Virus record (IMG/VR): IMGVR_UViG_3300030117_001006
Coordinates: 1-33,420 of that record
DNA: 33,420 bases
DNA from: a virus
Direction: 5' to 3' (one strand)
Shown one piece after another: positions 9,303 through 33,419 of this stretch (position 1 is the stretch's first letter; each line of letters starts with the position of its first letter). The notes under the pieces were generated by a model, which saw nothing but the letters and a program-made list of their open reading frames with translations, was not told where the DNA came from and ran no database searches. The translations under genes and the position numbers were made by a program.

Positions 9303-11490
9303 TTAATAGAGTCCATTCTTTTATGTCTTTCATTTGCATAGCTTGGGTAAATACTTTTAATAAATAGTTTTCATTAAGGAAACTATTTGGAACTAAAAGT
9401 TCACCCGGTTTAACATTATTAGGATCAACCTTTCTATTAGTATAATGTAAATATATATCTTCTGCTAGTAGTGCTTTAAAGGGAACTTCAACAATATTAG
9501 CAATAGCATCTAAATCTGAATCAGATAGTTCTTTTTTAAAAAGCTCTCCCCAAAATGGAATAAGAGTATTAACAGGCATAGTATCAATATTATCTTTAAC
9601 ATAATGTTTAAATAACTGAGCAACATTTATTTGTCCATCTTCTGTAATATTGGCGTCAAAACTTAAATTAGCATCTACCCAATAATTACTAGAAGAATAA
9701 AAATTTTCTCCTGTTGGGCTTAAACTAGCTATTAGTACGCCTTCTAGATCATCTCTAACATCTTTAAATGCTTTATCATCAGGAATATTTATTGATTGAT
9801 ATTCTTTATAAAAATTACTCCATGCTTTTAACTCTATAATACTATGTTCGTCTAAATTAGAAGGAGGTATATCTTTATCTATTATATTCATAGCTAATTT
9901 ACCTAACTCTAATGTTCTTTGGAAATCTAAAGGACTTTTAATTTGTAAATACTCTTGTTGCCCAAAAGCATCAAGAACAGCAGTAGGCACTCTATTAGTT
10001 ACAGATACCAATTCATTAATTGTGTTTAAAGCATCTGGATATTTTAATCGACCACTTTCATCATATTCAAAGAAGTCAATAGTATTAGCATTAAAAAATG
10101 GTGTATGCTTCATACCTTCTTGCGTTTCACCATATCCTAGTTGTGGAGCTATTTCAGTACGATAAGTTACTGTTTCATGTGGTCTAAGTTGTTGATTAAA
10201 CAAACTATCAACCATAGCTTGTTTAACTTGTTCAGCATTTTCATAAGTTGTCCATCCTTCTGCTTTTAGCTTATTCATTATAGTAATAGACATATTGTGC
10301 ATATTAGACATTTCTGGTTTAGCTAAATAATTTTTAGATTCTTCCCAGATTAATGTGTTAGATTTTTTCTTATGAAGGATATTTGTAATATCTGCCTGTG
10401 ATAAATTAAGTTGTTGTAAAAAAGTAACTAATTCATTGTTATCTTGTTCTAATAACATTTTACTATCAAATCCGTCTAGTCTTTGATGTACATCAGCAAC
10501 AAGACTTTCAGCATTAATTTGTTGTTTAACTTTATATTTTTCAAATTCTTTATCAGAATCATTTTGGTAAGATTTTATCTTCTCTTGTAAATTTGTAACT
10601 ATTAGTTCTCTTTCCGGAATAGTAGTATCTTTTAATAAAGAAGCAAAAGCTGGGATTTCTTCTATCTTTTCAGGATTTTCCTGATATTTTTTTAATATAG
10701 TTTTAACGTATTTAGCTGCATTCTCAAATTGTAAATCATCTTTCTCAAATCCTAAATTCATTGGATCATTAAGATAACTATCAGCATCTGCTATTAAGGC
10801 ATCTTTTAAAAAACTAGTAACAATAGATTCCATTCTTGCTTCTTCTATAAATATTTGTTGGTTTCTAAACCATTCTTCTGGTCGAAGCAAATTGGAATTA
10901 TCATCTAAAGAATTGTATAACTTTGTATAAAGCTCATAAGATTCACCTAATTTCTGTAGAGCCATTCCCCCTTCCCCATCAGGACCAACAATAAATTCAT
11001 CTAATTGGGCAAAGTTCATATCTTGCATTTGAGTAGCAATGTCATTCATTATTACTGTATGACCATCTTGGAATATCTTTTGCTTTTCTGCTTGATTTCT
11101 ATTATTCCATTTAGTCCATAAAGCATCACCTTTAGTAGCTATAAGTGGGCTAATTAATTGTTTAGTCCATGATTTATATCTAAGAGGAGCTTGTTCTATA
11201 GATTTTTCCATATAAGCATTAGCAGCCGCCATAAACTTATCAGGATCATATCTGTAATTTTCATCTCTAGATAATGTAGTTAAATAGTTAGTAGCATCTA
11301 CATTAGCTTTAGTTCTATACTCTAAGTCTAATAATTCGGCAGCTCTTGCTTGGAATGTATTAACAACCTTACCAATATTATCAGCAGCAGTTGCTAGTGC
11401 ATCTCCTGTATAAGCTGGAGTTACTCCTCTTCTTTGAGATAAAGAAGCAATACTAGTTCCTACTTCTTTTTCACCTACTTTTAATGCCAT
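9295..11490 (-). CDS. Internal virion protein (T7 gp15-like)
   Basis: 731 residues, mostly helical and acidic/amide-rich. The N-terminus 'MALKVGEKEVGTSIASLSQRRGV...' followed by long helices ('AADNIGKVVNTFQARAAELLDLEYRTKANVDATNYL') resembles gp15-type core proteins of marine podophages, which form the ejected tube across the periplasm. Its place after the gp14-like gene supports this. It overlaps the gp14-like stop by one base and the next gene by 8 bases. No catalytic motif is visible. Confidence 0.65.
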   Translation of the reverse strand: MALKVGEKEVGTSIASLSQRRGVTPAYTGDALATAADNIGKVVNTFQARAAELLDLEYRTKANVDATNYLTTLSRDENYRYDPDKFMAAANAYMEKSIEQAPLRYKSWTKQLISPLIATKGDALWTKWNNRNQAEKQKIFQDGHTVIMNDIATQMQDMNFAQLDEFIVGPDGEGGMALQKLGESYELYTKLYNSLDDNSNLLRPEEWFRNQQIFIEEARMESIVTSFLKDALIADADSYLNDPMNLGFEKDDLQFENAAKYVKTILKKYQENPEKIEEIPAFASLLKDTTIPERELIVTNLQEKIKSYQNDSDKEFEKYKVKQQINAESLVADVHQRLDGFDSKMLLEQDNNELVTFLQQLNLSQADITNILHKKKSNTLIWEESKNYLAKPEMSNMHNMSITIMNKLKAEGWTTYENAEQVKQAMVDSLFNQQLRPHETVTYRTEIAPQLGYGETQEGMKHTPFFNANTIDFFEYDESGRLKYPDALNTINELVSVTNRVPTAVLDAFGQQEYLQIKSPLDFQRTLELGKLAMNIIDKDIPPSNLDEHSIIELKAWSNFYKEYQSINIPDDKAFKDVRDDLEGVLIASLSPTGENFYSSSNYWVDANLSFDANITEDGQINVAQLFKHYVKDNIDTMPVNTLIPFWGELFKKELSDSDLDAIANIVEVPFKALLAEDIYLHYTNRKVDPNNVKPGELLVPNSFLNENYLLKVFTQAMQMKDIKEWTLLND

Positions 11491-25489: not shown

Positions 25490-25554
25490 GTAAGAGATTT
25501 CATCAAAACTAGAGAATATAGATATTAACATGATAAAAGAAAGGAAAAAACATC

Positions 25555-26091
25555 ATGGATATAAATCAAAAGCGTGAGTATGTGTTAGACGGTATTCGTC
25601 AAGACACACTAAATGGACTGAAGCTAGAGTATGCTTCAATGATTAAATATGACGACTTATATAATTTCAAAATGGAGTTACAGTCGCATATATCTAAACT
25701 AGAATTTGGTTTAGATGGTTTACTGAAGAAGCTAGATGAGAAAAAACTAGCACTTGAGAAACATAAAGAAGCTAACGGTAATAGAAATATAGATGTACAA
25801 ACTGCTAGCTTTCAATCCTTAGAGGTACTAGCTAATACCCTTACACAATTAGAGAATAGCATTGCTAACTTTAAATATAGTATTGGTATTAAAAAAGCTC
25901 GTATTCAAGCATCTAAGGATTTTTACCTTCAGATAATGGGTAAACCTTACCTAAAATATACTTCCAAAAACGGTCCTGTGCGACAGCTCAAGTTTACGGA
26001 AGCAAATGAGTGGAACAAGAAAAACGCTCATAAGGTAGAGCCTGTGATTGAGCCTGATCCAAATCACGTGCCTTTACCAGAAGGCATCTAA
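25555..26091 (+). CDS. First early gene; coiled-coil protein of unknown function
   Basis: 178 residues, charged and largely helical. Residues ~35-70 ('MELQSHISKLEFGLDGLLKKLDEKKLALEKHKEANG') and ~84-115 have heptad-like Leu/Ile spacing, so a coiled-coil oligomer is likely. The C-terminus is Pro/Glu-rich ('EPVIEPDPNHVPLPEGI'). The ATG has AAAGGA upstream, and a strong terminator follows the gene, so it may be the separately transcribed first early gene. No family is recognised. Confidence 0.65.
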   Translation: MDINQKREYVLDGIRQDTLNGLKLEYASMIKYDDLYNFKMELQSHISKLEFGLDGLLKKLDEKKLALEKHKEANGNRNIDVQTASFQSLEVLANTLTQLENSIANFKYSIGIKKARIQASKDFYLQIMGKPYLKYTSKNGPVRQLKFTEANEWNKKNAHKVEPVIEPDPNHVPLPEGI

Positions 26092-26108
26092 GTTATAAAG
26101 ATTTTTAT

Positions 26109-26154
26109 ACCTTCCCGTTTCCACGGGAAGGTAGCGTTTTTAAAAAAAAACGCT
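26109..26154 (+). terminator. Tandem-hairpin terminator after the first early gene
   Basis: ACCTTCCCGT-TTCC-ACGGGAAGGT is a perfect 10-bp hairpin (26109-26132). It is followed by AGCG and five T, which themselves are the left arm of a second perfect 9-bp hairpin (AGCGTTTTT/AAAAACGCT, 26133-26154). The two structures share the T-run, so formation of the second could compete with release, leaving room for partial read-through. Confidence 0.8.
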
Positions 26155-26171
26155 CTGAGTGTGAGTGAATG

Positions 26172-26185
26172 CCGAGCTAGCTCGG
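26172..26185 (+). promoter_or_regulatory. 14-bp palindrome in the leader of the 93-residue gene
   Basis: CCGAGCTAGCTCGG is perfectly self-complementary and lies directly before the ribosome site GGGGAAAGGA (26184-26193) of the next gene. It could be an operator or an RNA hairpin adjusting translation. It is G+C-rich inside AT-rich DNA. Confidence 0.45.
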
Positions 26186-26197
26186 GGAAAGGACAAT

Positions 26198-26479
26198 ATG
26201 ATACACACAGTAATTACAAAAGAAGAACATCATGAATTATGTGTTCTAGGGGGGACATATAGTGATCTCTATAAAGACCTTTATGGTATGCGACCTAGAG
26301 GGTTTTATCCCTCAACAGTAGAGGAATATAAGCTAGAGATAAGCAGAATTGCAAACGAATTAAGCATGGAAATTGAGTCAGAACGCAAAAGGAAAGAGAG
26401 GATTAAAAATAGAAAGCCTTATGTTAGTAGACCAATCAATTATCCATTTAAAGATTTAAATGAATTAATAGGAGGATAA
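26198..26479 (+). CDS. Small early protein with 'LYGMRPRG' motif
   Basis: 93 residues from ATG 26198, chosen because AAAGGA lies five bases upstream. A longer frame from 26165 would read through the palindrome without a ribosome site. The centre 'TYSDLYKDLYGMRPRGF' resembles the 'LYKD.YG.RPR' motif found in many small phage proteins of unknown function. The C-terminal half is a very basic helix ('ESERKRKERIKNRKPY'). Probably a host-takeover or DNA-associated small protein; not determined. Confidence 0.65.
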   Translation: MIHTVITKEEHHELCVLGGTYSDLYKDLYGMRPRGFYPSTVEEYKLEISRIANELSMEIESERKRKERIKNRKPYVSRPINYPFKDLNELIGG

Positions 26480-26484
26480 TAATC

Positions 26485-26664
26485 ATGTTTATATTATTGA
26501 TTAGAATATTACTTGGGTTTCTATCTGTTGGTGGAATAAGTTTAATATTATTCTGTATGGCAACAGGACAAAATATGGATTTACCAATATTAATGCAATT
26601 CGCATTAATGGGATGTTTTAGTTATGGATTTTATACATCAATAAAACCTGAAGGAGGGATATAA
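26485..26664 (+). CDS. Small membrane protein with two hydrophobic segments
   Basis: 59 residues, from ATG 26485 with AGGAGG nine bases upstream. It begins MFILLIRILLGFLSVGGISL. Residues ~2-26 and ~33-50 are hydrophobic and can each span a membrane, with a short polar turn (TGQNMD) between. The gene is A/T-rich. Its size and two spans fit a holin or other small membrane effector, but its place among early genes makes a host-envelope or exclusion role equally possible. Confidence 0.7.
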   Translation: MFILLIRILLGFLSVGGISLILFCMATGQNMDLPILMQFALMGCFSYGFYTSIKPEGGI

Positions 26665-26665
26665 A

Positions 26666-26755
26666 ATGGTATTAGTAATAATATTGTTATTCATAATATT
26701 AGTTTTAATAAAAGCTTATTTAATAGTGGAAAGCGAGAAAAAAGAAAGGAGTTAA
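26666..26755 (+). CDS. Tiny single-span membrane peptide (29 residues)
   Basis: MVLVIILLFIILVLIKAYLI followed by the charged tail VESEKKERS. The gene starts one base after the previous stop, with AGGAGG (26652-26657) eight bases before the ATG and still inside that gene, and ends one base before the next ATG. The tight fit between two genes, the strong ribosome site and the hydrophobic-then-charged plan all support a real micro-protein. Its own 3' end supplies the AAGGAG site of the next gene. Confidence 0.6.
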   Translation: MVLVIILLFIILVLIKAYLIVESEKKERS

Positions 26756-26756
26756 T

Positions 26757-27146
26757 ATGTCTGAATTAAATTCTCTTGTTTGTGGCATTGTTGGTACACG
26801 CACCTTCACCAACTTTATTTTATTCCAATCTGTGATGAAAAAAATCCGTCTTGCAGACGGAAACATCACTAGATTGGTATCTGGTGGTGCAAAAGGTGCA
26901 GATAAACTAGCTGAACGTTACTCTATGATTTACGATATACCAATCAAGGTATTCTACCCTGATTGGAAAACTTATGGCAAATCAGCTGGACCTATTCGCA
27001 ATAAACTTATTGTAAAAGCATCTGATTTTGTGGTTGCCTTTTGGGATTACTCTAGCAGAGGTACATTGTCCAGTATAAATTTTGCCAAAAGTTTTGGTAA
27101 ACCAGTTCACATTATTGACATCAGAAAGGAGTCATTAAATGGTTGA
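26757..27146 (+). CDS. SLOG-fold nucleotide-binding protein (YAcAr/DUF2493-like)
   Basis: 129 residues. Motifs: 'CGIVGTRTF' (9-17), 'VSGGAKGADKLAERY' (41-55), 'VFYPDWKTYGKSAGPIRNKLIV' (65-86) and 'VVAFWDYSSRGTLSSINFAKSFGKPVHII' (92-120). Together they define the SLOG (Smf/DprA-LOG-related) family often encoded by phages. The fold binds nucleotides or NAD-derived ligands; the exact role in phages is not established. It overlaps the next gene by 8 bases. Possible functions include ligand sensing or sequestration against host defence. Confidence 0.88.
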   Translation: MSELNSLVCGIVGTRTFTNFILFQSVMKKIRLADGNITRLVSGGAKGADKLAERYSMIYDIPIKVFYPDWKTYGKSAGPIRNKLIVKASDFVVAFWDYSSRGTLSSINFAKSFGKPVHIIDIRKESLNG

Positions 27147-27354
27147 GAAATTAAATAGCTTAATTAGACAAGAACTATCAAAGTTTATGGAACAAAAAAT
27201 CCAGTATATGGATATGCATAAACTAAAAGCCAAGACATATTGGCTTTTTAAAGACTATCATCAAGTAGGGAATGATTCAGCGTATACCGAGGAGTTCTAT
27301 AAAATAACAATAGAAAGGATTGATTTAGATGATAACATTCAAAGCAATCAATAA
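27139..27354 (+). CDS. Small early protein, unknown
   Basis: 71 residues, helical at the N-terminus ('LNSLIRQELSKFMEQKIQ') with an aromatic-rich centre ('YWLFKDYHQVGND'). AAAGGAG upstream of the ATG is strong and the gene overlaps both neighbours by a few bases, as usual in this operon. No family recognised. Confidence 0.6.
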   Translation: MVEKLNSLIRQELSKFMEQKIQYMDMHKLKAKTYWLFKDYHQVGNDSAYTEEFYKITIERIDLDDNIQSNQ

Positions 27355-27496
27355 ATATAGCGTTATTTACAATGGTAAAACAATAGACTATTATAAATTA
27401 ACGTTTTTAAACGGGGATTTCAAAATCTTAACAGAAGAGGATTTTGATTTATTAAAGCAAGAGGTAATGTGTGATGTCAAAAATACTATGTCCTGA
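27329..27496 (+). CDS. Small early protein, unknown (55 residues)
   Basis: Begins MITFKAINKYSVIYNGKTID and ends in ...VKNTMS. The ATG at 27329 follows AAAGGA and overlaps the previous gene by 26 bases. It is predicted beta-rich in the first half ('YYKLTFLNGDFKILTEEDFDLL'). It overlaps the next gene by 23 bases. No known domain; it looks real because the operon leaves no gaps otherwise. Confidence 0.55.
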   Translation: MITFKAINKYSVIYNGKTIDYYKLTFLNGDFKILTEEDFDLLKQEVMCDVKNTMS

Positions 27497-27638
27497 ATGT
27501 AATGGTGAAGCCTATGTAGATGATGAGCCTTGCTTATCATGTGAAGGTGGATTCATGGAAGAAATAGGTCCAGAAGATTACACATTAGTCGAAGATCAAT
27601 ACACGAAAGGAGTGAATGATGATCTCATTTATGAGTAA
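27474..27638 (+). CDS. Small zinc-ribbon protein (54 residues)
   Basis: Starts MSKILCPECNGEAYVDDEPC and continues LSCEGG, giving CPEC and CLSC, two CxxC knuckles 14 residues apart, a typical treble/zinc-ribbon spacing (as in DnaJ-like or zinc-ribbon phage peptides). The acidic tail is 'EEIGPEDYTLVEDQ'. The start overlaps the 55-residue gene, the end overlaps the 115-residue gene. Likely a metal-binding adaptor of unknown target. Confidence 0.65.
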   Translation: MSKILCPECNGEAYVDDEPCLSCEGGFMEEIGPEDYTLVEDQYTKGVNDDLIYE

Positions 27639-27966
27639 GACAGCTAGAACTGTCGCAAAAGGCTTAGCAACTACCGAAGCCTATAAATATAGCAAGGGTA
27701 GAGCAGTATGGTACTGGCGAGTACTATTAAGCCCAGATTTCTCTAAGACTATGACAAATTTATACAATGTCAATAAAGTCGAGAGAGATTTAAATAACAA
27801 TGCATTCGATCAAACACCAAAGAAAGTATTTCATATCAGCCCAGAGGGCGATATTTATGACATACGCACTGGTGATATCTATGGCAATGTAAGAGAACCA
27901 AAAAGCAATAGATATAATAATATGAATGATGCTAATTACAACAATGTGGAAGGAGCTACTACATGA
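27619..27966 (+). CDS. Small early protein, unknown (115 residues)
   Basis: Start chosen at 27619 because AAAGGAG ends six bases before it; ATG 27616 is only three bases away from it and would add one residue. N-terminus 'SKTARTVAKGLATTEAYKYSKGRAVWYWRVLLSPD' followed by 'PKKVFHISPEGDIYDIRTGDIYGNVREPKSNRY'. The 'G.IYD..TG.....V' segment is a short beta repeat. It overlaps the zinc-ribbon gene by 20 bases. No family recognised. Confidence 0.55.
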   Translation: MISFMSKTARTVAKGLATTEAYKYSKGRAVWYWRVLLSPDFSKTMTNLYNVNKVERDLNNNAFDQTPKKVFHISPEGDIYDIRTGDIYGNVREPKSNRYNNMNDANYNNVEGATT

Positions 27967-28238
27967 ATGACGAACAAACCAAAGCTTTTATTAAGTGGTC
28001 TGAAAGTATATTAGAAGCATTACAAGCAACTAATAAACAATTAGATATGCTTACTAACAAAGTATACGAGTATCAAAAGTTTAATATAGCTATGGGTACT
28101 AGTGTACTTAAACTGTTTACCGATCTAGCTGAAAGTAGTGATTTATTTAGTGAAGGTGAACTCAAAGCAATTGCAGATATGCAAAGGAGTATTAATGAGC
28201 AAAATGAACGCCCTAGCAATGGAAAAGCAAATAGCTGA
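27963..28238 (+). CDS. Small helical early protein, unknown (91 residues)
   Basis: Mostly helical: 'ILEALQATNKQLDMLTNKVYEYQKFNIAMG' shows a heptad-like Leu/Ile spacing. ATG 27963 follows AAGGAG by seven bases and overlaps the previous stop by four (ATGA). The end overlaps the next gene by 44 bases. No motif indicates function. Confidence 0.58.
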   Translation: MNDEQTKAFIKWSESILEALQATNKQLDMLTNKVYEYQKFNIAMGTSVLKLFTDLAESSDLFSEGELKAIADMQRSINEQNERPSNGKANS

Positions 28239-28455
28239 CGAAGAACGTTTAGAAATTACTAGAGAACGACTTGGTAGATTAACAGAAATCCACCATCATC
28301 TAGTTGCTTTACATGATGACGACAAATATAATTTTGATAGTAATACACGGTTAATACTTAATTTAATGAAGAAACAAATTGATTCATTATGTAAAGTAGA
28401 TGAACAAACTGTTGATCTTCTTGAAATGGAATTAACTGATTTATCTCCTCTTTAA
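28195..28455 (+). CDS. Small helical early protein, unknown (86 residues)
   Basis: Start at ATG 28195, preceded by AAAGGAG with a five-base spacer; an upstream start at 28138 would give a 105-residue form with no ribosome site. Sequence is helical and charged ('MEKQIADEERLEITRERLGRLTEIHHHLVALHDDD'), ending 'LLEMELTDLSPL', with Leu/Ile spacing of a short coiled coil. It is the last gene before a hairpin at 28465-28491. Confidence 0.6.
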   Translation: MSKMNALAMEKQIADEERLEITRERLGRLTEIHHHLVALHDDDKYNFDSNTRLILNLMKKQIDSLCKVDEQTVDLLEMELTDLSPL

Positions 28456-28464
28456 ATAAAATTA

Positions 28465-28491
28465 GGTGAGAGGGGTTTATCCCCTCCCACC
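28465..28491 (+). other. Long intergenic hairpin
   Basis: GGTGAGAGGGG pairs with CCCCTCCCACC around the loop TTTAT: 10 of 11 pairs formed with one A-C mismatch. It lies between two genes of the early operon. There is no T-run after it, so it is a pause, stability or processing element, or a weak terminator. Confidence 0.6.
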
Positions 28492-28505
28492 ACAGAAGGT
28501 CTATA

Positions 28506-28532
28506 ATGTGTAATAGAAAGGAATATACATGA
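28506..28532 (+). CDS. Eight-codon leader ORF (MCNRKEYT)
   Basis: A mini-ORF with its own ribosome site (GAAGG, six bases before the ATG) whose TGA overlaps the next gene's ATG as ATGA. The AAAGGA site of the next gene lies within it. The 14 bases GAAGGTCTATAATG at 28495-28508 are identical to the ribosome site and start of the 91-residue gene at 32386-32399. It could regulate translation by coupling, or be a relic of a duplicated gene start. Confidence 0.35.
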   Translation: MCNRKEYT

Positions 28533-29395
28533 TACAAACCGAAAGTAAACTGCACATAGCAGAAAACTGTAATATTGTCCCCAGTATTCGTGATATTTAT
28601 TATCATGATTTACAGGCTGGCGACTGGGAACAGATCCCAGATAAGAAAGCTTTGTTTAATGAGGACAAATACATTGCCACTATGAGCAATGCAAGTGCCG
28701 AGAATCTCAGGACTTATCCTGATTTTGTCAATATGTTGAATCAAGGTCTTATGGACTCTAATTCATTAGACCTAGACAATGTAACAGTAGAAGATGATAT
28801 CATTGATAATGGTGGTAAATTTAGTCGTATAATTACATTTAATGGAACGACTACCACCTTTGAAAAAGATACATTGAAGCTAAGATTATGGGCATGGACT
28901 GCCTACAATCTACGTTGGGCTGAACAATTTATCTTTGGTCCAATGATTGTTTATTGTCTTAATGGTTGTATGAGAGCTGATTGGAAGATCAAAGGTATGT
29001 CCAAGAAAAATTGGAATACCAAAACTTCTATTGGAGCTTCTGATATATCCAGAGCATTAGATGCATTTAATCAATTCCCAGAGTGGTTTGAGAGAATGGC
29101 TAAAAAACAAATAACACAAGATAAAGTGAGATATCTATTTGAGAATACAATAGCACAAATAGATGATCCTATCCATCCTAGAGTGTCGGACTATGCAATG
29201 TCAGAGTTATCATCACATTGGGAAAACTATAAACGTAGATATGGTATCAATATGTATGCAGTTTATCAAACTGCGACACATTGGGCTACACATCCAGAAG
29301 GTCGTGGACAACCAATGAATAAGTTCAGATCTAGATCAGATAAAGTAGCATCTATGTTACAATCACAGGATTGGCATACTTTACTTGCCGCTTAA
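28529..29395 (+). CDS. DUF932-like phage/plasmid protein
   Basis: 288 residues. The middle 'LRLWAWTAYNLRWAEQFIFGPMIVYCLNGCMRADWKIKGMSKKNWNTKTS' resembles the 'FG..RV.C.NG.......K..HT' core of DUF932/TIGR03299 proteins. 'FEWFERMAKKQITQDKVRYLFENTIAQ'-type helices and the closing 'YGINMYAVYQTATHWATHPEGRGQ...FRSRSDKVASMLQ' match the later 'Y..YNAVTE..TH' region. The family is common on phages and plasmids; its biochemical role is not known, though it is often near recombination genes. ATG follows AAAGGA and overlaps an eight-codon leader ORF. Confidence 0.65.
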   Translation: MIQTESKLHIAENCNIVPSIRDIYYHDLQAGDWEQIPDKKALFNEDKYIATMSNASAENLRTYPDFVNMLNQGLMDSNSLDLDNVTVEDDIIDNGGKFSRIITFNGTTTTFEKDTLKLRLWAWTAYNLRWAEQFIFGPMIVYCLNGCMRADWKIKGMSKKNWNTKTSIGASDISRALDAFNQFPEWFERMAKKQITQDKVRYLFENTIAQIDDPIHPRVSDYAMSELSSHWENYKRRYGINMYAVYQTATHWATHPEGRGQPMNKFRSRSDKVASMLQSQDWHTLLAA

Positions 29396-29414
29396 ATTAA
29401 TATATCAATTCTTT

Positions 29415-29678
29415 ATGGAGTATGCATTAGGCAAGAAATTCTATAAAGAAGTTATACCCCAGTTTGTCAAAGCAAGAGAGAAGCTGGGGTATACCCAAGC
29501 AACAGTAGACGAACTATTGGGTGTTGCTAGAGGTCTTGTTTCCAAATGGGAAGTAGGCATACGCAAACCGAGTGGTTATTTATTCTGTTGTTGGGCTGAT
29601 GCTTTAGGGTATCAGATTACATTAACAGAAAGGAACAATCATGAGGATAATATATTATCAAGAAAAACTACATCTTAG
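29415..29678 (+). CDS. XRE/Cro-type helix-turn-helix regulator
   Basis: 87 residues from ATG 29415 (a TTG at 29385 in the same frame would overlap the previous gene and seems less likely). Residues ~17-67 form the HTH: 'FVKAREKLGYTQATVDELLGVARGLVSKWEVGIRKPSGYLFCCWADALGYQI' with the 'R...G.TQ...........S.WE.G.R.PS...L......LG' pattern of the Cro/C1 family. The recognition helix is 'ARGLVSKWEVG'. The start has a weak ribosome site. It may bind one of the palindromes in this window. Confidence 0.82.
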   Translation: MEYALGKKFYKEVIPQFVKAREKLGYTQATVDELLGVARGLVSKWEVGIRKPSGYLFCCWADALGYQITLTERNNHEDNILSRKTTS

Positions 29679-29841
29679 TTTAACTAAATCAGAAATAGAT
29701 GATTTATATCATGCAAAAGGTACAGCAGTAGAAGTATGTCCTTCTTGTTTATTAACTTTACAACAAGATATATGTGAAGCTACTCGACAATACTTAATAG
29801 ATTTACAAAATAAATTAGATAAACATGAAGAATCTAAGTAA
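29641..29841 (+). CDS. Small Cys-containing early protein (66 residues)
   Basis: Sequence includes 'HLSLTKSEIDDLYHAKGTAVEVCPSCLLTLQQDICEATRQYLIDLQNKLD'. The CPSC plus a nearby Cys could bind metal, but a full four-ligand site is not visible. AAAGGA lies six bases before the ATG, and the gene overlaps the XRE gene by 38 bases. No family recognised. Confidence 0.55.
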   Translation: MRIIYYQEKLHLSLTKSEIDDLYHAKGTAVEVCPSCLLTLQQDICEATRQYLIDLQNKLDKHEESK

Positions 29842-30112
29842 TATATTAGGTAAATACAAAAGAGAAATATTACAAGAACAGGACCGAACTAGTCCAATGA
29901 CTTATAAGCAACGGAAAAGACAGTTCATCCTGAAAGCTGCAAAGAAATATTTTACTTATGACAAATATATAATGTTTATGAAGCTTTATCTATCACCCAG
30001 AGTGAAAGACAATCGAATAGTTTATGATACAGCGAATATGCTTTATGACAAATACAGAAAGGAGTTGCAAGAATGGCAACAAAAAAAAGAAAACTATCGA
30101 AGAAAGAGATAA
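29825..30112 (+). CDS. Small basic early protein, unknown (95 residues)
   Basis: Lys/Arg/Gln-rich ('SPMTYKQRKRQFILKAAKKYFTYDKYIMFMKLYL') with a predicted helical core and a basic end ('EWQQKKENYRRKR'). The ATG overlaps the previous gene by 17 bases and has no obvious ribosome site, so translation probably depends on coupling. It may bind DNA. It overlaps the nuclease start by 40 bases. Confidence 0.58.
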   Translation: MKNLSNILGKYKREILQEQDRTSPMTYKQRKRQFILKAAKKYFTYDKYIMFMKLYLSPRVKDNRIVYDTANMLYDKYRKELQEWQQKKENYRRKR

Positions 30113-30723
30113 AAGTATCATTAGGTGGTACTGATGCTATCAAGATAGTTAAAGGTCAATGGAAAGATATATGGGAAATTAAAACTGGAAAAACAGAAAA
30201 AGAAGATTTATCAGAAGTTCTACCAGTGCAAATGGGCATATATACCGAACCATTTAACATTGACTGGTTTGAAAAACAAACTGGATTAGAAGTAACGAAT
30301 AATAACAAAGTTTATACTAGTCCAGATATAGAGTTTCTACATGCAACAGTAGACGGAGTTATACATAAAGAAGAAGCAATCTTCGAAGCAAAACATGTTA
30401 GCCCGTTTAGTGCAAAAGATGTAGTAGATAGATATTATCCACAGTTACAACATTACATGATAGTAACAGGATTAAAACAAGCTTATTTATCTGTGTTGAT
30501 AGGTAATCTACAACATAAGATTTATAATGTAAAAGCTGACTATGACTTTATGCATAAACTGATATATGCTGAAACATATCTATGGAATTATATACAATAT
30601 GATATTCAGCCACCAGATTATGTAGATTTTGAGGCGTTTTGTTCAAGAAAGGAAAATCTAAATGGACTCACAGAACAAGTTACGATATCCATACCAAGCT
30701 GGTTACAAGAAACGATCCACTAG
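30073..30723 (+). CDS. YqaJ / lambda-exonuclease-like recombination nuclease
   Basis: 216 residues. PD-(D/E)XK motifs in order: 'VQMGIYTEPFNIDWFEKQTG' with E59 in the helix, 'FLHATVDGVI' with D94, 'AIFEAKHVS' with E105-x-K107, and 'YYPQLQHYMIVTG' with Q124 in the Q-x-x-x-Y helix typical of this nuclease class. A basic N-terminus ('KKRKLSKKEIK') precedes it. With the Rad52-like annealing protein downstream it forms an exonuclease-plus-annealer pair, as in Red/RecET systems. The ATG has AAAGGAG nearby. Confidence 0.85.
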   Translation: MATKKRKLSKKEIKVSLGGTDAIKIVKGQWKDIWEIKTGKTEKEDLSEVLPVQMGIYTEPFNIDWFEKQTGLEVTNNNKVYTSPDIEFLHATVDGVIHKEEAIFEAKHVSPFSAKDVVDRYYPQLQHYMIVTGLKQAYLSVLIGNLQHKIYNVKADYDFMHKLIYAETYLWNYIQYDIQPPDYVDFEAFCSRKENLNGLTEQVTISIPSWLQETIH

Positions 30724-31000
30724 TAAGGAAGCAGCAGATAAAATCAATATGAAATATCCAAGACTGATGTTCATGATTGAAGATATATATAAGTTTGGTG
30801 ATAATTTAACTTATACAGCTGATGAAGTAGCTGAACAATTAAATCAGAATTTAATAAGTGTTAGAGCTAGGATTACAGAATTAAATCAAACAGCAGTTCT
30901 AAGAGATTCTGGTGAAAGACGAAAGAACAAGAATAACAGAAATGTTATAGCTTGGATTCACAGAGATAAACTAAAGAAACAGAAGGAGTTGTTTACATGA
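30662..31000 (+). CDS. Winged-helix-like DNA-binding protein
   Basis: 112 residues. 'LTYTADEVAEQLNQNLISVRARITELNQTAVLRDSGERRKNKNNRNVIAW' reads as a winged-helix: helix-turn-helix with the 'T.DEVAE.L......VR.RI.EL' pattern, then the wing 'L.DSGERR.N..NRNVIAW'. This pattern is common in small phage regulators near recombination genes. ATG 30662 follows AAAGGA and overlaps the nuclease's 3' end by 62 bases. May regulate early transcription or replication initiation. Confidence 0.68.
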   Translation: MDSQNKLRYPYQAGYKKRSTSKEAADKINMKYPRLMFMIEDIYKFGDNLTYTADEVAEQLNQNLISVRARITELNQTAVLRDSGERRKNKNNRNVIAWIHRDKLKKQKELFT

Positions 31001-31476
31001 GTGATAACAAACGTATCTGGGACAGTTTCAAACATACTGATCCCAAGTTTACCAAACAATTTAACAAGTTTGGTAAAGATCTAACAACTACTGATCCTAT
31101 GTATCAGGTGATGAAGATGACAGATCAATTTGGTCCAGTCGGTAAAGGTTGGACTTATAGTGTAGAATATACATACACAGAGAAAAATGTATTTGCAGAA
31201 CTTAAAATAGGTTGGCGAGAAAATAAGGATAGTGAATTTAATTGGTACGGTCCTGTGTCAGCAGTCAATCCTTTGTATAATACTAAAGGCACACTAGATG
31301 ATGAAGCGCCCAAGAAAGCTATGACAGATGCTATGACTAAAGCTATGTCGCATTTAGGTATGGCAGCAGATGTATTTTTAGGTTTATTTGACAACAACAA
31401 ATATGTTCAACAAATGAAATCTAAGTTTACAGTAGCTAACGAGTCTAAGATTACAGAGATTAAGGTAGCCAAGTAA
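30997..31476 (+). CDS. Rad52-like single-strand annealing protein
   Basis: 159 residues. Core pattern: 'FGPVGKGWTYSVEYTYTEKNVFAELKIGWRE' (beta-beta pair as in Rad52/Sak), followed by a loop and 'DDEAPKKAMTDAMTKAMSHLGMAADVFLGLFD' at 101-132, the 'D..A.KKA.TDA..KA...LG.....y.....' helix diagnostic for this family. It would anneal complementary single strands made by the neighbouring nuclease. Overlaps: 4 bases at its start (ATGA), 1 base at its end. AAGGAG precedes the ATG. Confidence 0.8.
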   Translation: MSDNKRIWDSFKHTDPKFTKQFNKFGKDLTTTDPMYQVMKMTDQFGPVGKGWTYSVEYTYTEKNVFAELKIGWRENKDSEFNWYGPVSAVNPLYNTKGTLDDEAPKKAMTDAMTKAMSHLGMAADVFLGLFDNNKYVQQMKSKFTVANESKITEIKVAK

Positions 31477-31733
31477 TGAGTTATACATTTAAAGGCAAAG
31501 ATATAATTGCTGTATCTATGTTACCTGATAATAACATGTATGAAGCCTACTACAAAAAAGATAAAGGTAGTGGGCTTCAAAAACTCAGGTTTAGTGCATG
31601 GGATTTTACTGACGGAATATTAAATTCATTAAAGAAATCTGAATTTACTATAAAATATCCAACATGGGGATTTTATAGATTATGCAATCAAAGACATCAT
31701 AATATATTAGGAAGGAAGTTATATAATGATTAA
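31476..31733 (+). CDS. Small early protein, unknown (85 residues)
   Basis: Sequence 'MSYTFKGKDIIAVSMLPDNNMYEAYYKKDKGSGLQKLRFSAWDFTDGILNSLKKSEF' is beta-rich at first and helical later. Start overlaps the previous TAA as TAATG. It lies in the middle of the recombination module, so an accessory role in DNA metabolism is possible. No family recognised. Confidence 0.58.
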   Translation: MSYTFKGKDIIAVSMLPDNNMYEAYYKKDKGSGLQKLRFSAWDFTDGILNSLKKSEFTIKYPTWGFYRLCNQRHHNILGRKLYND

Positions 31734-31977
31734 ACAGAAAATAGAAAATTGGGGATTTGATGTAGTATCAGAATCTCTAGAAGATTATTACGAAGGTTAT
31801 GACCATTTGGAAGTATGCCATAGTGTATTTCACGGTATCCCTATATGGAAACGATATACATTAATAATTTTATTAGGAAGAGATTGGTTAGACGAAGAAG
31901 TTGATTTAGCAGTCAGAGATAAAACTGATGAGTTATGTCAAGACCAAGTAGAACGCAGAATGGAAGGAGCGTATTAA
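31726..31977 (+). CDS. Small acidic early protein, unknown (83 residues)
   Basis: Net acidic, with 'DYYEGYDHLEVCHSVFHGIPIWKRYTLIILLGRDWLDEEVDLAVRDKTDEL'. ATG follows AAGGAAG in the previous gene, with an 8-base overlap. It ends in a one-base overlap with the ssb start. It lies between the annealing protein and SSB; role unknown. Confidence 0.58.
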   Translation: MIKQKIENWGFDVVSESLEDYYEGYDHLEVCHSVFHGIPIWKRYTLIILLGRDWLDEEVDLAVRDKTDELCQDQVERRMEGAY

Positions 31978-32378
31978 TGACAATTAATAAAGTAATATTA
32001 GTAGGTAACTTAGGGAATGATCCAGAAGTTAAAATATCTACTAAGGAAAAGAAGTTCGCCAAACTATCTGTAGCAACACATGAGAAGTTTAAGAATGCTA
32101 AAGGCGAACTAGTAGAAAGAACACAATGGCACAATGTAGTTGTGTTCGATCCAAGATTAGCTGAAACAATAGAGAAGCATTACAAGAAGGGAATGCAAAT
32201 CTATGTAGAAGGACAATTAGAAACTAGAAAATATGAACATAATGGTGAAACCAAATATGCAACAGAAGTTGTAGTTCCACAGTTTTCTGGTGATATTAAA
32301 ATTGTCGGGACTAAAGGATCAGCACCTAAAGAGTCATCAAGTAATGATGATGATGAAGGAGCAGATATACCATTTTAA
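31977..32378 (+). CDS. ssb: Single-stranded DNA-binding protein
   Basis: 133 residues from ATG 31977, preferred over an upstream start because GGAAGGAG precedes it and TAATG overlaps the previous stop. OB-fold motifs: 'NKVILVGNLGNDPEVKISTKEKKFAKLSVATHEKF' (bacterial SSB opening), 'ERTQWHNVVVFDPRLAETIEKHYKKGMQIYVEGQLETRKYEHNGETKYATEVVV'. The C-terminus is the acidic partner-binding tail ending 'ADIPF', as in host SSB. It protects single strands and should serve the neighbouring exonuclease/annealer. Confidence 0.95.
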   Translation: MTINKVILVGNLGNDPEVKISTKEKKFAKLSVATHEKFKNAKGELVERTQWHNVVVFDPRLAETIEKHYKKGMQIYVEGQLETRKYEHNGETKYATEVVVPQFSGDIKIVGTKGSAPKESSSNDDDEGADIPF

Positions 32379-32396
32379 TCGAAAGGAAGGTCTATA

Positions 32397-32672
32397 ATGC
32401 CATATCGTAAAGTAACTAAAGGACACTATACAGCTACAGTTCCTAGAACATTTAATGATGATATTGTAATTCATCTAGTTAAGAACAGTAGAGCCAGTAG
32501 TTATGTTGGTAGTGAGTCATGGCAGATAGTTGTTGATGACAGTTATGTGAATGCTGAGAAGAAAGTTATAGGGACAGCTGGTTCTTATGCTCTTGCAAAG
32601 AAGAAAGCAAAGACATATATTGAGATGAGGTTATTATCTCATATAGATAGACAATTGGCGTTTGTAGAATAA
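32397..32672 (+). CDS. Small early protein, unknown (91 residues)
   Basis: Sequence is basic and probably mixed alpha/beta: 'HYTATVPRTFNDDIVIHLVKNSRASSYVGSESWQIVVDDSYV' then a helical 'GSYALAKKKAKTYIEMRLLSHIDRQL'. The ATG follows GAAAGGAAGG in a 14-base block identical to one at 28495-28508. It is the last gene before the structured non-coding stretch. No family recognised. Confidence 0.58.
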   Translation: MPYRKVTKGHYTATVPRTFNDDIVIHLVKNSRASSYVGSESWQIVVDDSYVNAEKKVIGTAGSYALAKKKAKTYIEMRLLSHIDRQLAFVE

Positions 32673-32983
32673 AGTTTCCATATGGAACTGTGTAGCAAAG
32701 CTGGTGGCTATAAGACTACACAAAAACGGCAAGGATAGTGCCAAGGGGAGTTTCCCAAAACTATCCACAAGTTTCGTGATATTGATTAGCTATCAGTATC
32801 GGCTGACTGAACAACTCTAAAACAGAGGGGTAAGGTACACTCGAGAGGAAGTATGGGCAAATGCCTGAGGTAATCGAGGGTGGTTGTAAGTAGGCATGAT
32901 CAGAGGTTTATCTGTAGCCGAAAGCTTGTGGGTGATACAACTAATCCCACGCCCTTGGCGAATTTAACAAAGGAGTAATTATA
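32673..32983 (+). ncRNA. Candidate structured non-coding RNA or leader
   Basis: 311 bases with no plausible gene, richer in G+C (28 of 60 at 32701-32760) than flanking genes. Successive hairpins: AGTT(T)CC/GGAACT (32673-32689); GTGTAG/CTACAC (32690-32695 with 32716-32721) with inner AGC/GCT; GGATAGT/ACTATCC (32733-32739 with 32760-32766) enclosing GGGA/TCCC; TGATA/TATCA (32777-32795); CTCT/AGAG (32815-32827); CTCGA/TCGAG (32840-32878) enclosing GGC/GCC; CAGA/TCTG inside GGC/GCC (32893-32919); GTGGG/CCCAC (32928-32950). It ends at the AAAGGAG site of the next gene. Could be a stand-alone RNA or a long regulatory leader. Confidence 0.6.
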
Positions 32984-33205
32984 ATGTCTGATTTACAAAA
33001 TACTATTGAAGAACATGCAGTTTCTTTAGTTGAAGAAACAGTTAATGATTTTGATTTTGATTCAATCATTGAAGATGCTATATACACTTACATTAACGAC
33101 AATCCTGATGTCGTTAGAAATGCTGTTAGAGATTCCTTGTCTACACTATCTATGAATGATAGACAAGCTATCAAAGATTTGGTTAAACTATTAAACGAAG
33201 AATAG
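32984..33205 (+). CDS. Small acidic helical protein (73 residues)
   Basis: Sequence 'TIEEHAVSLVEETVNDFDFDSIIEDAIYTYINDNPDVVRNAVRDSLSTLSMNDRQAIKDLVKLL' is acidic and helical with no known domain. A strong AAAGGAG is nine bases before the ATG. It is enclosed by two structured non-coding stretches, which is unusual for this gapless operon, and could be the protein controlled by the upstream RNA structure. Possibly a DNA-mimic-like inhibitor because of its acidic character, but this is speculation. Confidence 0.62.
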   Translation: MSDLQNTIEEHAVSLVEETVNDFDFDSIIEDAIYTYINDNPDVVRNAVRDSLSTLSMNDRQAIKDLVKLLNEE

Positions 33206-33219
33206 TTTCGAAATAAGTT

Positions 33220-33353
33220 TTGTATTGCATATTAAATTTCTAGGGTAACCTTTCGCTCTAGTCCTTTCCAATTGCGATACAACAGGGGTAGGTTTCATAT
33301 CCTCCGCTTTCTCCTACCCCTGTCAGTTTGTAGGAAAGAAAGAATCTACCTAC
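33220..33353 (+). ncRNA. Second structured stretch downstream of the 73-residue gene
   Basis: TTGTATTGC (33220-33228) pairs with GCGATACAA (33274-33282), nine pairs with one G-U, enclosing CTAGGG/CTCTAG (33240-33261). Directly next, ACAGGGGTAGG pairs with CCTACCCCTGT over 11 perfect bases (33282-33292 with 33313-33323, 20-base loop), then GTAGG/CCTAC (33330-33353). Together with the terminator after it, this looks like a 3' UTR or small RNA. No gene fits. Confidence 0.55.
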
Positions 33354-33364
33354 ATATAATACTT

Positions 33365-33419
33365 AAGGCAAGGTAGTAGCCATAATGAGATATCACCCTT
33401 GCCTTTCGTATCTTTTTTT
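33365..33419 (+). terminator. Intrinsic terminator at the right edge
   Basis: AAGGCAAGG (33365-33373) pairs perfectly with CCTTGCCTT (33397-33405), loop of 23 bases, followed after seven to eight bases by a run of seven T (33413-33419). It closes the structured stretch and presumably this early transcription unit. A TATAAT at 33355-33360 lies just upstream but lacks a -35 partner. Confidence 0.7.

Follow-up and report, generated by a model that had tools for sequence, protein, structure and literature searches.

The 311 bases at positions 32673-32983 in the DNA of an uncultured marine phage are probably part of a small array of non-coding RNAs, the main product of which would be a divergent homologue of manA RNA (RF01745), ~190 nt long, processed from a transcript and acting in trans as a stand-alone RNA. 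Homology to manA, a conserved structure, the lack of a fixed neighbour gene, and the adjacency of relatives to tRNA and tmRNA genes were all observed. The RNA is a divergent manA branch in a new setting rather than a wholly new family. The initial annotation had described it as a candidate new RNA, which holds only in part, its core being a divergent manA RNA that scores below the Rfam gathering level.

The window, that is, the whole stretch of 33,420 nucleotides that was analysed, comes from the viral contig IMGVR_UViG_3300030117_001006, which has 43,535 bases. The gene set of this record is podovirus-like (head-tail adaptor, terminase, and internal virion protein), and the head-tail adaptor shares 55% identity with its counterpart in Pelagibacter phage EXVC031P Hodr, the nearest isolate found, whose host is Pelagibacter. 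The early operon runs rightward and encodes a RecE-like exonuclease, a second exonuclease family, and SSB; the array is located at its downstream end, and a leftward (convergent) operon lies directly beyond. Genes within 26757-32378 overlap or almost touch, and the 311 bases between a 91-codon gene (32397..32672) and a 73-codon gene are indeed free of genes, as first described. Hairpins continue past the 73-codon gene as far as the window edge, and the genes beyond run leftward. A run of 10 Ns just past this edge (L122 422-431, record ~33421-33430) is a scaffold gap inside the hairpin region.

The stretch was also correctly described as richer in G+C, with 43.7% against 33.3% in the early region 25500-32672, a value matched by none of 686 equal-sized early-region windows and by 4% of those across the whole window. 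No conserved ORF was found in 32673-32983, where crossing ORFs have only 20-48 codons. ARAGORN predicted no tRNA or tmRNA gene and Rfam gave no match at gathering level, in agreement with the first reading; phage records compared directly at the DNA level with the window and with the clade RNAs gave no match, and Hodr is without a match to the RNA (best E 0.25). Both inverted repeats first pointed out, GTGTAG/CTACAC and GGATAGT/ACTATCC, are present; the supposed series of eight consecutive repeats is really two small hairpin modules and one multi-helix RNA, with closing stems ~190 nt apart (Table 1). The fold energy of the stretch, proposed as a check, is barely better than that of shuffled controls (-83.9 vs -78.3 +- 5.3 kcal/mol; z -1.05; 17 of 100 shuffles equally good), and that of the large RNA alone (191 nt) gives z -0.60. 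These energies are not significant and were therefore left out as support; the second hairpin (module F) is the sole part with an outstanding fold energy. By the energy criterion alone the structure would fail, yet covariation is clear and a conserved ORF is absent. It is very improbable that the repeats are not RNA but a DNA-level feature, such as a recombination site or an origin: a fold energy no better than shuffled would suit it, as would the shuffling of modules as DNA cassettes with a common AGTTT edge, but compensatory changes including G-U pairs occur in many groups, and the co-location with tRNAs is on the same strand.

Table 1. Modules of the RNA array, parts of its manA-like member, and the gene lodged in the array (positions in the window).
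Feature	Position	Strand	Evidence
Module X, short variant: AGTTTCC-ATAT-GGAACT hairpin and GTGTAG..CTACAC stem enclosing GCTGGTGGCTA	32673..32722	+	Fold z -0.81
Module F: GGATAGTGCCAAGGGGAGTTTCCCAAAACTATCC hairpin, inner GGG/CCC	32733..32766	+	Eight relatives; z -2.4 to -2.7
Module M: manA-family RNA including AGTTTC header	32770..32965	+	RF01745 match; R1 covariance model 211.7 bits
Terminal stem, 5' side TTCGT, partner GCGAA 32958-32962	32773..32777	+	97.5% paired; G-C to A-U in L003, L130, L131
Hairpin P1 GATATTGA..TCAGTATC	32778..32800	+	Both sides changed in 3/6 counted pairs
Closing stem, 5' side GGC, partner GCC 32951-32953	32801..32803	+	No variation within clade
Invariant core TGACTGAAYAA-[hairpin 32814-32831]-TAAGGTACACT	32804..32841	+	Sequence conserved family-wide; hairpin pairs covary
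P3 arm, apical hairpin GGGC-AAAT-GCCT at 32855-32866	32838..32882	+	Apical pairs G-C/U-A/A-U
P4 arm, tip variable	32886..32925	+	Inner pairs GC/AU, CG/UA
P5 hairpin GTGGG..TAAT..CCCAC	32928..32950	+	U-A replaced by A-U in 11/22 sequences
73-aa acidic ORF	32984..33205	+	Weak match to PHROG 12463, unknown function; lodged among RNA modules
Module H: AGTTTTGTATTGCA..TTGCGATACAA	33216..33282	+	Also in L003, L004, L005
Module I hairpin: AGGGGTAGG..CCTACCCCT	33284..33321	+	Also in L003, L004, L005
Module J hairpin: AAGGCAAGG..CCTTGCCTT	33365..33405	+	Also in L024, L132, L133

Four contigs, obtained through relatives of the 91-codon gene, carry the same RNA at the same place, and searching viral contigs for the core pattern TGACTGAAYAAN{8,34}TAAGGTRNACT gave 107 stretches; individual loci are cited here by L numbers. 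Alignment of 22 members of the window's clade with MAFFT and folding with RNAalifold gave the manA architecture, in which both partners had changed in 12 pairs. When the named structure was counted in these 22 sequences, 99.3% of cells were paired, against 33-48% with the partners slid; with the terminal stem included (24 clade loci), 98.5% were paired, against 35-50% in the slid controls, and 11 of 42 pairs had changed on both sides, the covariation counts being of sequences, not events, among closely related clade members. A joint alignment of the clade with recognised manA, in which 96.5% of cells were paired and 24 of 37 pairs had changed on both sides, was fitted to the covariance model R1, built from the window's clade alone; the clade-only MAFFT alignment is independent and in agreement. 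The compensatory changes sought in homologous loci were clearly found, and this covariation supports a genuine structured phage RNA, as the initial annotation had suspected. Across manA groups the closing stem GGC/GCC is paired in 29 of 29 sequences, and each of its three pairs has changed on both sides. This pairing had also been considered as a pseudoknot, which was rejected, as both the RF01745 alignment and the RNAalifold fold have it as a nested closing stem.

In a permissive search RF01745 matched 32780-32958 over model positions 1-192 of 192, with 29.1 bits (E 6.4e-6) against a gathering score of 55.2, and the match is repeated in other clade members at 28-40 bits. R1 in turn detects gathering-level manA at full length in L071 (72.3 Rfam bits; R1 E 3e-7), L072 (66.6; 1e-6), and L026 (55.9; 3e-4), and gives 95-126 bits in the bridging groups L012, L036, L088, L029, and L127, three of which (L012, L088, L127) reach 28-40 bits with RF01745. 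Because the loci were obtained by the core pattern, the core is non-independent evidence; the other helices are independent. The window RNA shares with manA the full-length alignment, the helix order, the core GACUGAAYAA..UAAGGU, the GGU..UAAUCC hairpin, and the phage and marine distribution. On the other hand, it scores below threshold, its P3 arm and P1 loop differ, its genome is podovirus-like and pelagiphage-related rather than that of a T4-like cyanophage, and it has no link to sugar, nucleotide, or photosynthesis genes. Nor was it found in 5' UTRs belonging to metabolic genes, the neighbours being ssb, small unknown proteins, and other RNA modules. The manA of isolate S-CREM1, a more distant one, gave no match to R1 at E <= 1, the clade model being narrow. 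In view of full-length homology and bridging groups, yet a missed S-CREM1 manA, the large RNA is named a divergent member of the manA superfamily, below Rfam's own threshold. Among 84,980 bacterial and archaeal species the core pattern matched twice, in neither case manA, and the RNA therefore looks phage-restricted within the reach of that pattern. The two matches (L125, L126), a number close to chance, were rejected as manA, since R1 matched neither and Rfam also gave none for L126.

Near-identical RNAs of the clade adjoin at least seven upstream and at least eight downstream gene families, or none. The upstream gene may be ssb (L017, L027, L044, L052, L059-L064, L067), a 91-aa gene (window, L002-L005), a 137-aa gene (L011, L056, L068, L085), a ~270-aa gene (L024), a ~320-aa gene (L022, L065, L093), or others; downstream there may be a 267-aa, 73-aa, helix-turn-helix-like, ATPase-like, or other small gene, or none within 200 bases, all names except ssb being read from the sequence and not from family libraries. 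As neither neighbour is constant, the RNA is better explained as an autonomous element than as a leader or a 3' UTR. The initial annotation had offered a leader of the acidic 73-residue protein as one of two possibilities, and a cis-regulatory leader or riboswitch is the label that manA carries in Rfam and in Weinberg 2010, having first been reported mostly in potential 5' UTRs as a riboswitch candidate (PMC2864571). Such a role, here for the 73-aa gene, is unlikely. An AAGGAG and an ATG do follow 15-30 nt downstream of the window RNA, and some cyanophages and a 17-locus phage group have the RNA tens of bases or less from a constant gene; in ACG-2014f cyanophage, for example, manA precedes an Fe(II)-dependent oxygenase gene. 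However, close relatives have different genes or none downstream of the RNA, tRNAs or other RNA modules often follow it directly, and in L066 a strong promoter-like TTGACA-16-TATAGT intervenes between the RNA and the ATPase-like gene. A consistent place ahead of one gene or pathway, as expected of a riboswitch, was not found in the window's clade. The 73-aa gene itself is kept in L004, missing from L003 and L005, and replaced by another gene in L002; it lies inside the array without a constant partnership with the RNA, so that the proposal of a leader for this gene was not supported.

The strongest argument for a cis role comes from the 17-locus group (L013, L016, L019, L043, L078, and others), in which a distant manA-like RNA is followed by the gene family M[SA]KVKTIT... 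Many members of this group also have a tRNA-Arg ~790-870 bases upstream of the RNA.

A second role tied to a neighbour, that of a 3'-UTR or operon-end element stabilising or terminating the upstream early transcript (a bidirectional terminator or decay block), is less probable again than a leader. The array of the window does lie between convergent operons, and in several members the RNA starts directly after the ssb stop codon. Against this, a single weak terminator-like site was seen, on the opposite strand, the upstream genes vary, relatives sit inside tRNA arrays, and the conserved internal loops and closed 190-nt fold are more than a decay block requires.

The remaining evidence for a stand-alone RNA comes from recognised manA. 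In five loci (L048, L072, L075, L079, L092) it is set between tRNA-Met and tRNA-Ala with spacings of a few bases, and in L046 a tRNA-Asn abuts it. In five others (L026, L053, L063, L081, L113) manA lies ~10 nt downstream of a permuted alpha-type tmRNA, in L071 it comes 183 nt after a tmRNA, and in L101 a tmRNA is found 30 nt downstream of a manA-like RNA of 29 bits. In the isolate cyanophage S-CREM1, whose paper terms manA cis-regulatory (PMC9964418), tRNA-Leu ends at 10213, manA follows at a distance of 1 nt and occupies 10215-10429, and the abutting tRNA-Asn 10429-10501. Compared with random placement on each contig, the adjacency to tRNA or tmRNA has p 0.0005-0.02 in each of six lineages, the S-CREM1 value being scaled from local tRNA genes to the genome's 24. 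In the window's own clade none of the RNAs was found to have a tRNA or tmRNA nearby, and the link to translation thus depends on relatives. The label of probable cis-regulator or riboswitch has been attached to manA since 2010 and is repeated in later phage papers. Contrary to it, the placement within tRNA and tmRNA arrays makes it more likely that manA is chiefly a stand-alone phage RNA, which can be tested in a culturable phage such as S-CREM1. For the window RNA too, of the two possibilities first offered, the stand-alone RNA seems the better supported, by these arrays and by the shuffled neighbours. In this respect it resembles GOLLD and ROOL, phage non-coding RNAs of unknown function that are often near tRNA islands (PMC12286853), but these are several times larger, and the Rfam search of the window matched neither.

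Three details of these neighbourhoods may be added. The tmRNAs span 921-1262 in L026, 1226-1629 in L071, and 4806-4922 in L101. Phage tmRNAs adjoining manA are mostly of the permuted type, with the tag ANDNFAPSGYALAA or ANDNFASQDYALAA. In S-CREM1 (OP535465 10132-10643, L124) an abiF RNA and another tRNA are close downstream of the manA/tRNA pair.

If the window RNA is a stand-alone product, it would be transcribed by read-through from the early operon and released from the transcript, with the UUCGU/GCGAA stem closing its ends and the AGUUU junctions as possible processing sites, and would then act in trans as a stable folded RNA. As members of the same family occur within the tRNA arrays of phages and next to phage tmRNA, translation or the handling of tRNA and tmRNA during infection would be the likeliest area of action, and binding of a host protein may also be considered. 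The loose RNase E consensus RN|WUU accommodates AGTTT and is too degenerate to serve as evidence.

The manA family now reaches a phage group whose nearest isolate infects Pelagibacter, alongside structured modules outside Rfam. In the window's phage group, modules X, C, D, E, F, M, H, I, J, K, and others are strung directly after a stop codon, most of them headed by AGTTT and of at least eight distinct types (window 32673-33405; L024, L027, L052, L059, L064, L109, L130-L135). The arrays counted, 9.3 kb from related loci, contain 59 copies of AGTTT, against 12.1 +- 3.5 expected. The order of modules varies: X-F-M-gene-H-I-J in the window, X-M-E in L109 and L052, X-C-M-E in L059, F-C-M in L130-L135, and M-C in L017. 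A longer module X is directly upstream of the manA-like RNA in L027, L052, L058-L060, L064, and L109, and downstream of it in L003/L057 and L005. Covariation was also found in module F (98.6% of cells paired in eight relatives; both sides changed in 3 of 9 pairs) and in module C (99.4%; 8 of 15 pairs), and an Rfam search of the non-manA modules in the loci examined matched no family. With their small structured RNAs strung together at short spacings, these loci are like phage tRNA and tmRNA arrays, inside which recognised manA sits, whereas the array of the window has no tRNA and only manA among its modules matches Rfam. It is conceivable, though short of probable, that marine phages exchange arrays of many undescribed structured RNAs, of at least eight types and mostly AGTTT-headed cassettes, with the manA family the commonest; these would form a phage arsenal of non-coding RNAs akin to the tRNA arrays, with perhaps a separate host target bound by every member.

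The header of the manA-like module pairs with the module end, a terminal stem supported in 24 sequences. As a general rule, pairing of each AGTTT header with its own module end was only weakly above random positions (mean helix 7.4 vs 6.6) and is kept as a lead only. Unnamed modules common to different phages were also seen at L127 1678-2196 (minus strand), L131, and L135, for example GTATGTGT..CCCTATCC..CACTTAATCTTTG and AAATCCAAACACC..GGTTAGTGTTTAGTAA.
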